Shown here: positions 7,002 through 52,594 of the stretch, in pieces
Layout of the letters: each line of letters opens with the position of its first letter
Position numbering within the stretch: position 1 is the stretch's first letter
Assembly: GCF_005233835.1 (NCBI RefSeq)
Contig: NZ_SZQA01000001.1
Coordinates: 1-64,000, forward strand
Reading direction: 5' to 3'
Length of the DNA: 64,000 nt
Source of the DNA: Herbidospora galbida
GTDB taxonomy: Bacteria > Actinomycetota > Actinomycetes > Streptosporangiales > Streptosporangiaceae
Position numbers and translations under genes: made by a program
The notes under the pieces: generated by a model
What the model was told of the DNA's origin: nothing
What the model saw: only the letters and a program-made list of their open reading frames with translations
The model's database searches: none

Positions 7002-7187
7002 GCCGCCCATCCTCCGGAACCCCTATTACAACGGCGTTTCCACGAAGTGAAAGGGGAAACCGGGCTTACCCACAACCAGTCACGCCCATCATGACAAAGA
7101 TCACAGGCGTGCGCGGCCAAAACCACAAACAATGGGATAAACCCGGTCCGACCTCTCGCCGCCCACAAAAGGCGGGGGAATGCGCTC

Positions 7188-33813: not shown

Positions 33814-33935
33814 CGTTACCCCCACAATGTGTTGATTGTCCAAGTTTGACCGATTCTGGGAGTTGTACTACCTTCTGGGGAACTCGAGGCGGTGTGACCT
33901 ACGTAACCGCAGGTCAGCCGCCGAAAGGAAGACAA

Positions 33936-34138
33936 CTAGAGATCGCCGAATCCGCGCGCCCCGCGCGGAACCGGGGAACCAGCGAGGACCCGGTGATCAC
34001 CTGACTCTCCCGATCACCACGCAACACCCACCGGGTCCTCTGGGGTGAATCGGCCTGTCAGCCCCTCCCGACAGGCCGTAGGGCGGCTTCCACGCCCGAG
34101 TCCGTCAGCTAACCCGGTAGGCGCATGGAAGCAAGGAG
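33936..34138 (+). ncRNA. c-di-AMP riboswitch (ydaO-yuaA type)
   Basis: The 5' untranslated region of the CHAP gene holds the conserved blocks of this riboswitch in order: ATCGCCGAATCC (33942-33953), GGAACCGGGGAACC (33968-33981), TGGGGTGAATCG (34041-34052), and the block from GGGCGGCTTCC through CCGTCAGCTAACCCGGTAGG, then the closing GGAAGCAAGGAG. The last element contains the ribosome site AAGGAG (34133-34138). In actinobacteria this class typically turns off cell-wall hydrolase genes when c-di-AMP is high. Exact ends are approximate. Confidence 0.93.
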
Positions 34139-48807: not shown

Positions 48808-50076
48808 TCAGGAGGATTCTTCGAACGCCCGCGCGGCGACGCGGATGGGATGGGCCTCCACCAGCTGTTCCGCCACATCCAGCCAGGCCAGCGCTGTCGT
48901 GGCCGTACCCGCGTACAGGGATGCCAGCACTTCCGCCGGGTCGGCGTCGTTCAAATCCTGCGCGCCCACCGGCGCCCCGTCGGCTTCGAACGCGGATCGC
49001 CCCTGCGGGAGCGAAACCGTGATCGTTCCCTCGAGATGGTCGTCCTCATCGGACAGCGCGATCCACAGTCGCCGTATGGGACCGCCGTCGTGCGGCGTGA
49101 TCCGGACTGGGAGGAAGCACCCCACCCGCTCGGCCAGCGGGCCGTCGCCCGCGTGCGTCCGCACGAGCTGAGCCGTCACGCGCACCCAGCCGGCCTGTGT
49201 CTCGACGAGCTGGACGCGCTGGACGTCATCGCCAAGGATCTGGATGTGCTCGCGCACCTCGTCGGTGCCCGCCGCGGCCTCCAGGCTGGAGTGCAGTTCG
49301 GTACGTATCCGCCCGGCCTCCGATCGGTCGGCCAGGCGCGCGGCGGCCACTCGGCAGGCGTGCCGGTACAAGGGATCGACGCCCTCCATGAGGGACACGA
49401 GCCGGCTGAGGCCGACGCGGGAACGCGCGGGGACGCGGGACAGCGGAACGTCGCAGAGGGCGGCCAGCAGCGCGTTCGCGCCGAACCTGGCGATCAGCCG
49501 ATCGCCGGTGCGCAGCCCGTGGTCGAGTTGCTCGACAGGACCGGTGAGTCCGAGCACGGCCGGTGTCAGCCAGTGCCGGACCTCCACCGGCTCCCCGAGC
49601 GTACCGCCCGGTGCCAGGCCGGCCGCGACCGCTTCGACCGCGCGATCGAGCAGGTCCCAGGGCAGGATGGCGAATACCTCGTCGGGCGGACGGGCCTCGG
49701 CGTCGAGCCGTTCCAGCAGCCAGTAGCGCAAGGGCAGCGACTCGCCGCTCAGCTCTGCGAACAGGTCGGCCGTGCCGCCGTCGATCACCGGCCACCGCTG
49801 CTCGATGCGGGCTATCACCTCGACCGCCTGACGGCTCGCGATGATCGGCCGGCCGAAGTCGTCCAGTTCCACCACGGTCGTCCCGTCGCCGTGGGCCAAC
49901 CCCAGCACGTGTCCGGCTGAGCCCCATGGCAGCGCGATGCGGCGCCATCCGTCGGCGAAGTGGTCCAGTCCCCGGGAGTCAGAGCGGTGATCCCCGTCGT
50001 TGACCGGGCCCAAGTGCCCGGTGCCTGGTGACAGGGTGGCGGTCCAGGCGCTGAGCGGGCGGTGCGGAGAGCTCAT
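48808..50076 (-). CDS. Protein of unknown function in the nucleotidyltransferase/WD40 operon
   Basis: 422 residues that I do not recognise. It looks soluble: no signal peptide or TM helix. The N-terminal third has ELDDFGRPIIASRQAVEVIA and acidic/aromatic segments. The middle is helical (ARSRVGLSRLVSLMEGVDPL). The C-terminal third has a beta-rich stretch, RRLWIALSDEDDHLEGTITV. Its ATG overlaps the nucleotidyltransferase stop (ATGA), and its own stop is 13 bp from the WD40 gene, so the three products probably work together. Confidence 0.7.
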   Translation of the reverse strand: MSSPHRPLSAWTATLSPGTGHLGPVNDGDHRSDSRGLDHFADGWRRIALPWGSAGHVLGLAHGDGTTVVELDDFGRPIIASRQAVEVIARIEQRWPVIDGGTADLFAELSGESLPLRYWLLERLDAEARPPDEVFAILPWDLLDRAVEAVAAGLAPGGTLGEPVEVRHWLTPAVLGLTGPVEQLDHGLRTGDRLIARFGANALLAALCDVPLSRVPARSRVGLSRLVSLMEGVDPLYRHACRVAAARLADRSEAGRIRTELHSSLEAAAGTDEVREHIQILGDDVQRVQLVETQAGWVRVTAQLVRTHAGDGPLAERVGCFLPVRITPHDGGPIRRLWIALSDEDDHLEGTITVSLPQGRSAFEADGAPVGAQDLNDADPAEVLASLYAGTATTALAWLDVAEQLVEAHPIRVAARAFEESS

Positions 50077-51191
50077 CGGGTGTTTCCGATCAGGGTGTCG
50101 AGCAGTTCGCGGCCGGGTTGCGGCAGCATCGCCGCGAACTCACGTTGCTGCCGCGCGGTCGCCCGGACGCTTCGCCGATAGGCGTTCCGCAGGCCCCTCC
50201 ATTCGGAGCCGCTGAGCGTGCGGCACAACGTCGGCGGCAACGCGGCGATACGGGCCTTCAGCGGTTCCAGGTCGAACGCGACGACGCCCGACGGATCCTC
50301 CTCGCGCCAGCGCAGGGCGAACTTGGCCGCCCGCACGATGACCATCGCCTGGGTGGCAGGATCGTCGCTGACATTCAGCGGGGTGAAGCGCCGCTCTTTC
50401 CCCAGCAAATCGTCGAGACCGGTACCGCTCGGGTCCATGATCTGGTGGTCAAGAGCGTCGTACAGCAGCGCGTTGAAGGCGAAGTCCCGATATCGGGCGT
50501 CCTCCGAGAGCCGGCTGCCGACGGCGGGGAATTTGAAGCCTCCTTTCGACAACCCGCGATACTCGATGAGCCGTGTACTCGATTTCGGCGGGAGAACCGA
50601 GCACACCAGGGAGGACGGGTTGATGGTCGTCTGCCATTCCGACATGCCCAAGGCGCGCAACGTCTGACGGGTGATGTCGCTGAACCGGCCCGCCGGTACG
50701 GTGCCCGACAGATCGAGGTCGTTGACTTCGGACAGTGGCACGTTCGCCACCAGGTCGCGAGCCGCCCCGCCCGCCAGCCACAGCCGATGACCGGTGGCGT
50801 GCACGGCCGCCAGCAGCGGCCGGATCAGCGGGCGCCACGGCGCGCCCCGCAGGTCCAGCAGTGCGCCTGCCCGCACGGGAATCGCCGGGTTGACCGACTC
50901 CGCCGCGTGTACGTGGTGGGCGGGGAGGTCGGCCGGGGGCATGGCGGCCAGCGGGCGGGCGCCGTCCGCGGTTTGCGGCACCGGCCGGTTCGGAGGTCCG
51001 GGAAGGTGCTCATCGCCCTCGACCAACAGCCGGTCGTCGAGGTGGGTCGATGCGGCCTCGCCATTCTGCATAAGCCAGCCGAAACCGGCCACTCGGCGCT
51101 CCGCTAGGACATCGCCCGCGAGCAAGGGACGAACAGGCGAAATGTGGCCATCCCTGGATTTCAGTGTCACTTTCTCTCCGGATACATCCAT
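50073..51191 (-). CDS. Class II CCA-adding/poly(A) polymerase-type nucleotidyltransferase
   Basis: 372 residues. Head-domain motif LAGGAARDLVAN (Gly-Gly at 141-142) is followed by NDLDLSG with the metal-binding Asp pair (158, 160). The second family motif EDARYRDFAFNALLYD (230-245) matches the RRDFTxNA motif of class II enzymes. DPSGTGLDDLLGKE and SDDPATQAMVIVRAAKFALR follow, equivalent to the DP-GG--DL and DPLRILRAARFA segments. Thus the head and neck of a tRNA nucleotidyltransferase are present, preceded by about 110 unrelated residues. Substrate could be tRNA-like RNA, another RNA or a small molecule. It lies divergent from the 245-residue gene and permuted tRNAs. Confidence 0.85.
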   Translation of the reverse strand: MDVSGEKVTLKSRDGHISPVRPLLAGDVLAERRVAGFGWLMQNGEAASTHLDDRLLVEGDEHLPGPPNRPVPQTADGARPLAAMPPADLPAHHVHAAESVNPAIPVRAGALLDLRGAPWRPLIRPLLAAVHATGHRLWLAGGAARDLVANVPLSEVNDLDLSGTVPAGRFSDITRQTLRALGMSEWQTTINPSSLVCSVLPPKSSTRLIEYRGLSKGGFKFPAVGSRLSEDARYRDFAFNALLYDALDHQIMDPSGTGLDDLLGKERRFTPLNVSDDPATQAMVIVRAAKFALRWREEDPSGVVAFDLEPLKARIAALPPTLCRTLSGSEWRGLRNAYRRSVRATARQQREFAAMLPQPGRELLDTLIGNTR

Positions 51192-51479: not shown

Positions 51480-52217
51480 ATGATCGTGACCAAGCTCAAC
51501 CAGATCCTGGCCGTCGAGAAGGGCGTCAAGGCCGACGTCCAGCGCAAGGTGACGGAGGCCGGCACCCTGATCCAGAAGGCGCCGCTGCTGTCCGGCATCT
51601 CCCGCACCTACCAGCCCATCGACGACGAGGGCGAGCAGCTGCCGCCCGAGTCGACGCGCGTGCAGGTGCAGGCCGAGCAGGTGCTGCGCGACGTCACGGT
51701 CACCCTGACCCGGCTGTTCGACGTGACCGCGACCAAGGACGTCGCCAACTGCGCCGCCAAGGCCGACGTCGTCGTCGACGGCACGACGCTGGTGCGCGAC
51801 GTGCCGGTGACCTACCTGCTGTTCCTGGAGAAGCAGCTCACCGACCTGTACGGCCTCATCTCCCGGCTGCCCACCCTCGACCCGTCGGAGACCTGGTCGC
51901 TCGACGGCAACACCGACACCTGGCGCACCGAGCCGGTCCGCACCACCCGGACCAAGAAGGTGCCGCGCAACCACGTGCTCGCCGAGGCGACCGAGAAGCA
52001 CCCCGCCCAGGTGCAGGTGTTCACCGAGGACGTCGTCGTCGGCTACTGGACGCGCGTCGCCTTCTCCGGCGCGCTGCCCCAGCGGCGCGTCAACGAACTG
52101 CTGGCCCGGCTGACCAAGCTGCAGGAGGCGGTGAAGTTCGCCCGCGAGGAGGCCAACGGCACCGAGATCACCGACCAGAGGATCGGTGCGGCGCTGTTCG
52201 GTTACCTGCTCGGGTGA
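51480..52217 (+). CDS. Uncharacterised 245-residue protein upstream of permuted tRNA-like genes
   Basis: I do not recognise the family with confidence. The protein is soluble, with charged helices at both ends (LNQILAVEKGVKADVQRKVT and VNELLARLTKLQEAVKFARE). Its central part is a conserved-looking alpha/beta or beta-rich stretch with RVQVQAEQVLRDVTVTLTRL, DVPVTYLLFLEKQLTDLYGL and VQVFTEDVVVGYWTRVAFSG. No catalytic motif is evident. It ends about 60 bp before the first permuted-tRNA leader on the same strand with no terminator between, so co-transcription is likely. Confidence 0.8.
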   Translation: MIVTKLNQILAVEKGVKADVQRKVTEAGTLIQKAPLLSGISRTYQPIDDEGEQLPPESTRVQVQAEQVLRDVTVTLTRLFDVTATKDVANCAAKADVVVDGTTLVRDVPVTYLLFLEKQLTDLYGLISRLPTLDPSETWSLDGNTDTWRTEPVRTTRTKKVPRNHVLAEATEKHPAQVQVFTEDVVVGYWTRVAFSGALPQRRVNELLARLTKLQEAVKFAREEANGTEITDQRIGAALFGYLLG

Positions 52218-52291
52218 CCCCAAAGACCCCCGCCCGCAAGGACGGGGAGCGCGATGAGCGCAAGCTGAAACTGAGGCAATCAGACTGAACG

Positions 52292-52364
52292 ACGGTGACA
52301 GCGCAGGTTCGACCCCTGCCCCCTGCACCCACGCGGGGGTAGCCCAACCGGTAGAGGCAGCCGT
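52292..52364 (+). tRNA. Candidate circularly permuted tRNA (3' half before 5' half), copy 1
   Basis: The 3' half comes first: anticodon-stem strand ACGGT (52292-52296), variable region, T-stem/loop GCAGG-TTCGACC-CCTGC (52303-52319), acceptor strand CCCCTGC (52320-52326), A73. After five bases the 5' half follows: acceptor GCGGGGG (52333-52339), TA, D-arm GCC...GGC with GG in the loop (52342-52358), A26, anticodon-stem strand GCCGT (52360-52364). The acceptor stem pairs 7/7 (G3-U70 wobble) and the anticodon stem 5/5 (G27-U43 wobble). Leader GGCAAT (52275-52280) pairs with trailer ATTGCC (52395-52400). The anticodon is not determinable. A normal-order tRNA cannot be built from these sequences. 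Confidence 0.7.
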
Positions 52365-52434
52365 TCAAATTCAGACTCTCGCTCCAGACTCAGCATTGCC
52401 GCCGGTCACCGGAGCGACCGGCCACGGACGAAAG

Positions 52435-52505
52435 TCGTCAGGTTGGGGGTTCGAATCCCACCGGGTGCTCTCCCTGCGCCCGTAGCTCAACGGAAGAGCG
52501 GACGA
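52435..52505 (+). tRNA. Candidate circularly permuted tRNA, copy 2
   Basis: Same architecture as copy 1. 3' half: TCGTC (52435-52439), variable AGGTT, T-arm GGGGG-TTCGAAT-CCCAC (52445-52461, one mismatch), acceptor CGGGTGC (52462-52468), U73. After six further bases the 5' half follows: GCGCCCG (52476-52482), TA, D-arm GCTC-AACGGAA-GAGC (52485-52499), G26, GACGA (52501-52505). The acceptor pairs 7/7 with a G3-U70 wobble; the anticodon stem pairs 5/5 Watson-Crick. Leader GGCCACGGA (52420-52428) and trailer TCCGTGGCC (52517-52525) pair over 9 bp, extending the anticodon arm beyond an internal loop. Confidence 0.72.
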
Positions 52506-52561
52506 CATGACCGTGATCCGTGGCCTTCAAAGGCTCCGGTGCCGCGATGTGGCGGCGTAAC

Positions 52562-52594
52562 GGCCCCCGGGATTCAGGGTATTTCCTGGGGGCC
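52562..52594 (+). terminator. Terminator-like hairpin after the permuted tRNA pair
   Basis: GGCCCCCGGGA (52562-52572) pairs with TCCTGGGGGCC (52584-52594) with one mismatch in 11, around an 11-nt loop. It lies 37 bp after the trailer helix of copy 2 and separates the plus-strand unit from the converging MerR gene. Confidence 0.75.

Follow-up and report, generated by a model that had tools for sequence, protein, structure and literature searches.

A conserved RNA with two permuted tRNA-like domains lies downstream of DUF7873 genes in bacteria and phages

Introduction

What is the role of a bacterial locus in which tRNA-like halves are written, twice in tandem, in swapped order? The question arises in Herbidospora galbida, where a gene for a DUF7873 protein is followed by two units that each place the T-arm and 3′ acceptor before the 5′ acceptor and D-arm. 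We analysed the locus within a window of 64,000 nt (GCF_005233835.1, contig NZ_SZQA01000001.1, positions 1–64,000, forward strand), for which a first-pass annotation had proposed two circularly permuted tRNA genes. In some algae and archaea, permuted tRNA genes have the 3′ half before the 5′ half and complementary acceptor stems, and Bacteria have a two-piece (permuted) tmRNA, in which swapped tRNA-like halves are joined by an acceptor-side loop. We find that the units in the window are domains of one RNA of about 310 nt just downstream of DUF7873, a combination of gene and RNA that recurs in many soil bacteria and large phages.

Results

Pairing and covariation in the swapped order

Re-reading the letters placed the two units at 52303–52358 and 52445–52499, each running from T-arm and 3′ acceptor through a short loop to 5′ acceptor and D-arm. 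In domain I, the T-arm (52303–52319) and 3′ acceptor CCCCTGC (52320–52326) are followed after six bases by the 5′ acceptor GCGGGGG (52333–52339) and the D-arm (52342–52358); the 3′ and 5′ sides of the anticodon stem lie at 52292–52296 and 52360–52364. Domain II consists of a T-arm (52445–52461) with four of five stem pairs in this strain, CGGGTGC (52462–52468), seven bases, GCGCCCG (52476–52482) and a D-arm (52485–52499), and its anticodon-stem sides are 52435–52439 and 52501–52505. Each acceptor stem in the window has six Watson–Crick pairs and one G–U, so that the pairing reported for the two copies, two G–U pairs included, was correct.

Covariance in relatives had been set beforehand as the check on this register. 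Of 54 cellular sequences, 36 form the alignment used here (A2); it leaves out two with long acceptor inserts (L034 and L056), those without domain I (L044, L050–L052 and L055) and others as redundant. In the permuted register, 98.6% of the acceptor cells were paired, a level reached by none of 500 shuffles, 13 of the 14 acceptor pairs showed two-sided changes and the covariation score was 0.686. For the normal-order control, pairing was found in 62.7% of cells, where shuffles gave 59.2%; equally good pairing occurred in 13 of 500 shuffles, and 3 of 500 reached its covariation score of 0.199. The swapped-order pairing pattern is thus real and beyond chance, and a normal-order tRNA assembled from halves of both copies is rejected by the same comparison; the first-pass annotation had likewise noted non-complementary stems in that reading.

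A larger RNA around the two units

Folding A2 unguided with RNAalifold recovered both T-arms, both permuted 7-bp acceptors and both D-arms, and in addition three long-range helices round domain II and one round domain I; 42 of the 59 consensus pairs have a sequence changed on both sides. With anticodon stem I added to the consensus, the paired fraction of cells is 96.2% and changes on both sides occur in 45 of the 64 pairs; none of 500 shuffles reached either value. Slid versions of the consensus pair in 38–48%, although the structure comes from the same alignment and is hence favoured over them. The helix between leader and middle segment (columns 24–28/193–197) is paired in 96.7% of cells, and a further leader/middle complement (e.g., GGAGCG/CGCTCC), sought by a simple string search in 54 loci, is full in 29, present at five of six bases in 14 and absent from 11. 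The helices P1, P2 and P3 enclosing domain II (columns 203–208/379–385, 210–216/365–371 and 224–232/346–354) are paired in 99.5, 95.2 and 92.4% of cells, respectively. Five of the 53 cellular loci (those without it above) lack domain I, both in the script's output and on reading by eye, and have a shorter sequence instead.

The single-sequence minimum free energy (MFE) fold of the window RNA (z −2.93, none of 100 shuffles as good) recovers these domains and extends the anticodon stems into longer helices. Neither it nor the RNAalifold consensus predicts an anticodon loop, a loop made by splicing being beyond the reach of folding. The description of the units as tRNA genes finds no support here; they read better as domains of a single DUF7873-linked RNA.

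Linkage to DUF7873

A genome-collection search with the window's DUF7873 protein found 53 further cellular loci, the hosts being Herbidospora and other Streptosporangiales, Streptomyces, Nocardia, Ktedonobacteria and metagenome-assembled genomes (MAGs) of an Anaerolineae and a Blastopirellula. We inspected the region after the stop codon at all 53 loci and listed permuted units with a pattern script. R1, a covariance model built from the domain II half (168 positions), has a full-length match of at least 56 bits downstream of the gene in 53 of 53 loci, 28 of which had gone into the model. We then took a phylum and a family sample, both of which contain the H. galbida genome, and searched them with R1 under the stricter filters of Infernal. 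DUF7873 was found in 6 of 296 phylum genomes and full-length R1 matches of at least 62 bits in the same 6; 54 genomes had some match at E 0.01, and every match other than these six was below 47 bits, most of them being partial. The family sample had DUF7873 in 15 of 61 genomes and full-length matches of at least 96 bits in the same 15, all other matches being below 47 bits. By coordinates, the RNA lies downstream of DUF7873 on the same strand in all of these genomes of both samples.

Many of the partial matches (positions 55–111) may be YrlA RNAs, the bacterial Y RNAs, or tandem-tRNA junctions. Several weak matches in the phylum sample adjoin genes for TROVE (Ro60) proteins, and one genome has a second weak full-length match far from its DUF7873 gene (G128:C1:6523077–6523231). 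In L050 (7011–7085) and L052 (7012–7084), both from Nocardia, the RNA match is bordered at its 3′ end by an ordinary tRNA-Asn gene (R1 ends at 7014); ARAGORN found none in L051. Apart from DUF7873, no open reading frame of at least 80 aa within 6 kb is common to more than 10 of the 54 loci; neighbour clusters 1–3 overlap DUF7873 and were taken as other reading frames of it. Near the DUF7873 gene of the window, the minus strand (50073–51191) encodes a protein whose head domain is of the PolyA_pol type found in CCA-adding enzymes. An operon with RtcB or a CCA enzyme was considered and rejected, as this neighbour is not in a cluster common to most loci and RtcB is on another contig.

Occurrence in phages

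DUF7873 matches were present in 88 of 50,697 phage records, with the hosts Vibrio (29), Prevotella (Lak phages, 15), Gordonia (12), Rhizobium (12), Klebsiella (7), Serratia (6), Arthrobacter (3), Pseudanabaena (2), Rhodococcus (1) and Microcoleus (1); among the matches listed, those of Lak phages are weak (27% identity, E 5e-6 to 3e-5). We read 21 phage or viral loci, from 12 records and 9 contigs, and found at least one permuted unit in 17, a single one in L070, L077, L078 and L079. In Racecar, Phendrix, NiceHouse and Rhizobium phage RHph_Y65, DUF7873 sits among annotated tRNA genes and the RNA region is unannotated. RHph_Y65 (L077) also has a TROVE gene about 6 kb from DUF7873. According to part of the text of PMC7824862, some jumbo phages encode TROVE proteins, which are said to act with a tRNA-like partner in cellular organisms.

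Likeness to bacterial Y RNA

The best match in a permissive-threshold Rfam cmscan of 421 bases of the locus was YrlA (RF02553), at 38.4 bits over domain II (E 4.6e-7, 52421–52527). YrlA also matched domain II at E < 0.01 in 5 of 10 phage loci (L071, L072, L073, L077 and L082). The order of the Rfam model is T-arm, acceptor hairpin, D-arm and closing stem, the same as that of both window units, and the swapped order is thus the known design of the YrlA mimic. The first-pass annotation had named no firmly established bacterial case of a permuted tRNA gene; the swapped order itself has a bacterial precedent.

As described in excerpts of PMC8394870, YrlA consists of a large stem that binds Ro60/Rsr and a tRNA-like domain that binds PNPase, and is a substrate modified by DusA and TruB; an excerpt of PMC7790460 adds that a tRNA nuclease may be competitively inhibited by the tRNA-like domain. 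The same portions of PMC8394870 give YrlA a length of 90–150 nt and one tRNA-like domain, whereas the RNA studied here has about 310 nt and two heads. It also differs in having DUF7873 in place of an adjacent Ro60 and, often in phages, CCA in the acceptor loop. The design resembles Y RNA, doubled, in a larger RNA without adjacent Ro60; given its neighbour, its size and its score, we do not claim membership of the Y RNA family.

A YrlA-like RNA was found beside the Ro60 gene of H. galbida (L104 3023–3138, 39.9 bits). TROVE matches in this genome come from one frame on contig C40 and the window lies on C1; H. galbida apparently carries tRNA mimics of both kinds. At Ro60 loci, the best YrlA matches likewise reached only 35.0–43.4 bits (7 searched of 13 places).

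Acceptor ends and promoter-like boxes

In domain counts made with a script that misses one of two units in L025 and domain I of L057 and L082 and gives one extra in L060, CCA comes straight after the discriminator in 17 of 29 phage domains and 21 of 101 cellular ones. Shuffling letters within the loops gave means of 1.1 (maximum 6) for phages and 4.5 (maximum 14) for cellular domains in 2000 rounds. Encoded CCA after the acceptor is therefore enriched, chiefly in phages, which points to maturation of at least a subset of the acceptor ends. Loops have at most 10 bases in 91 of 101 cellular domains, with inserts of up to 96 bases (L034), and at least 20 bases in 14 of 29 phage domains. The 3–70 pair is G–U in 2 of 36 sequences for domain I and 10 of 36 for domain II, the window having G–U in both; as the pair varies freely, no fixed amino-acid identity is indicated. 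Domain II of L073 and L078 matches part of beta_tmRNA at 24.8 and 25.3 bits (E 8e-4 and 5e-4; cut-off 84). Just upstream of the RNA, promoter-like TTGnnn-17-TAnnnT boxes were seen in seven of eight Chloroflexota loci, with the best site chosen and no shuffled sequences for comparison, and suggest a separate transcript.

Features of the locus and standard scans

The features are collected in Table 1; hairpins like the one 3′ of the RNA occur, by eye only, at the same place in many of the loci inspected. ARAGORN found no tRNA genes within the window, and the H. galbida genome has 70 ordinary tRNA matches. The sole Rfam match in the window at gathering thresholds lies outside the RNA locus and is a c-di-AMP riboswitch (ydaO/yuaA; 33934–34138, plus strand, 72.9 bits).

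Table 1. Features of the DUF7873 locus of H. galbida, in window coordinates
Feature	Position	Strand	Basis
DUF7873 (PF25283) gene, 245 aa, adjoining the RNA	51480–52217	+	Pfam E 2.9e-115
Conserved structured RNA, about 310 nt, ends approximate	52246–52557	+	36-sequence alignment A2, RNAalifold, MFE z −2.93
Leader strand (approximate), pairs with middle segment and prolongs the domain I anticodon stem	52258–52291	+	RNAalifold, MFE
Permuted tRNA-mimic domain I	52292–52364	+	Alignment covariation, RNAalifold, weak YrlA match
Middle segment (approximate), pairs with leader	52365–52397	+	RNAalifold, MFE
5′ strands of long-range helices P1–P3 enclosing domain II (approximate)	52398–52434	+	Alignment pairing
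Permuted tRNA-mimic domain II	52435–52505	+	Covariation, RNAalifold, YrlA match
3′ strands of P3, P2 and P1 (approximate)	52506–52557	+	RNAalifold, alignment pairing
G+C-rich hairpin 3′ of the RNA, terminator-like, without clear T run	52562–52594	+	By eye

Discussion

We consider it likely that the locus encodes a ribonucleoprotein (RNP), made of the DUF7873 protein and a downstream noncoding RNA with two Y-RNA-like tRNA mimics. The RNA has a predicted structure with covariation, is linked to DUF7873 and recurs in phages; from this we infer that it would be made, be bound by the protein and tether other proteins as targets. Each head has a T-arm, an acceptor hairpin and a D-arm, and would sit atop a long stem in place of the tRNA anticodon stem, the swapped order following from which end of the tRNA shape is internal to the RNA, here the acceptor end and not the anticodon end. 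DUF7873 would bind the core of the RNA, and the heads would recruit tRNA-binding proteins, either tRNA-modifying or -processing enzymes or, as for YrlA, PNPase. The role of DUF7873 and its binding of the RNA are inferred from the genetic linkage alone. Its structure model is fairly confident (mean pLDDT 84, pTM 0.71). Rank 11 of its fold search in BFVD was a crAss-like phage protein (E 0.039, TM 0.43/0.57); sequence searches gave one non-significant match in NCBIfam (E 0.031), three against PDB (E 0.034–0.32) and none in PHROGs or PADLOC. A literature search, with most subscription journals outside it, returned no title or start of an abstract on such an RNA and no paper with "DUF7873" or "PF25283".

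Several observations weigh against an RNP of this kind. The fold search with DUF7873 in PDB and BFVD gave no match at E 0.001 or better, none of the structure or sequence searches gave a significant match to any RNA-binding family, and the pI computed for the window protein is 5.8, that for 30 aligned proteins 5.5–7.1 (L057 and L066 left out). In 4 of the 21 phage loci (L064, L065, L080 and L081), no permuted unit was found downstream of DUF7873; L065 was checked by eye and R1 only, and L081 has a weak R1 match (30 bits) farther along. In 22 of 36 rows, anticodon stem I lacks its distal pair, the RNAalifold consensus does not include anticodon stem II, and a merely closed hairpin leaves the encoded CCA unexplained. 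As for the likeness to Y RNA, domain I matches YrlA at 19.3 bits (E 0.16), alone not significant, neither domain comes close to the gathering score of 69 set by Rfam, and the window RNA has no Ro60 gene nearby. TROVE was found in 11 of the 28 DUF7873 genomes tested among the 53 loci and in 1 of 18 DUF7873 phage records tested. In the phylum sample, it was present in five of six DUF7873 genomes versus 9 of 296 overall, and the control genome of Deinobacterium chartae has both DUF7873 and TROVE. The five are all large genomes of one class, and we reject a Ro60 partnership on this ground and on the 11 of 28; there may be a link to Ro60 in trans.

The encoded CCA bears most directly on an alternative in which RNase P and a 3′ nuclease excise the acceptor loops, CCA is encoded or added and the pieces are held together by the helices, leaving one or two real tRNA-like 3′ ends, possibly aminoacylated, like those of two-piece tmRNA. 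Such an RNA would have seven-base-pair acceptors with T- and D-arms and would tolerate long loop inserts, as observed; the CCA counts above shuffles in phage and cellular domains, the partial beta_tmRNA matches and the action of tRNA enzymes on YrlA (in the excerpts of PMC8394870) also speak for it. The short loops of most cellular domains, 80 of 101 of which lack CCA, and the lack of a conserved identity pair speak against it, and we think it unlikely. Two-piece tmRNA shares the swapped halves and the acceptor-side loop, but the DUF7873-linked RNA usually has two units and no conserved G3–U70 alanine identity pair, and Rfam found no tmRNA in the window at the gathering score. That an RNP with excised loops and two CCA-ended termini, charged or sensed, would be carried by DUF7873 to serve translation or tRNA-directed defence is similarly doubtful. 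An RNA just past a stop codon could also be a regulatory 3′ region of the DUF7873 mRNA, acting for instance in feedback via tRNA-binding proteins; it begins about 30 bases beyond the gene in the window and on the same strand. This is improbable in view of the promoter-like boxes of the Chloroflexota loci (again the best sites chosen), of L057, where the RNA match lies about 700 bases beyond the gene, and of one genome of the family sample in which DUF7873 is a short fragment with two stops beside an RNA conserved at 134.7 bits (G377, C104:31732–32075).

The exact halves and covarying acceptors are what two circularly permuted tRNA genes would show if their halves were joined at the anticodon loop into decoding tRNAs, and an RtcB ligase gene is present in the genome. 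Algal and archaeal permuted genes are alike in having the 3′ half first and complementary acceptors, but the window RNA has no predicted 7-base anticodon loop, and its units lie within a larger RNA with a partner gene in every genome found. The anticodon stems run on into covarying helices, domain I can be missing, the genome is already supplied with ordinary tRNAs, and strict co-occurrence with DUF7873 would not be expected of a tRNA gene; moreover, no splicing endonuclease is known from Bacteria. Lacking a predicted anticodon loop, decoding tRNAs are very unlikely. The junction of two like tRNAs in a tandem array would give the same order, and the partial R1 matches elsewhere may be such junctions. 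A relic or recombination product of an array is nevertheless hardly credible here, as the outer tRNA halves are absent, conservation and covariation are strong in several phyla and in phages, and the covariation is confined to the permuted register.

If the RNP that we favor exists, it would consist of a Ro60-independent kind of tRNA-mimic RNA and a dedicated protein, DUF7873, spread over Actinomycetota, Chloroflexota, a planctomycete MAG and many phages. DUF7873 would gain a testable role within an RNP, and the RNA may contribute to tRNA use or to tRNA-directed defence, as suggested by its position within the tRNA arrays of some phages. The locus also calls for caution in annotation, as permuted tRNA-like genes of bacteria can be mimics of the Y RNA type.
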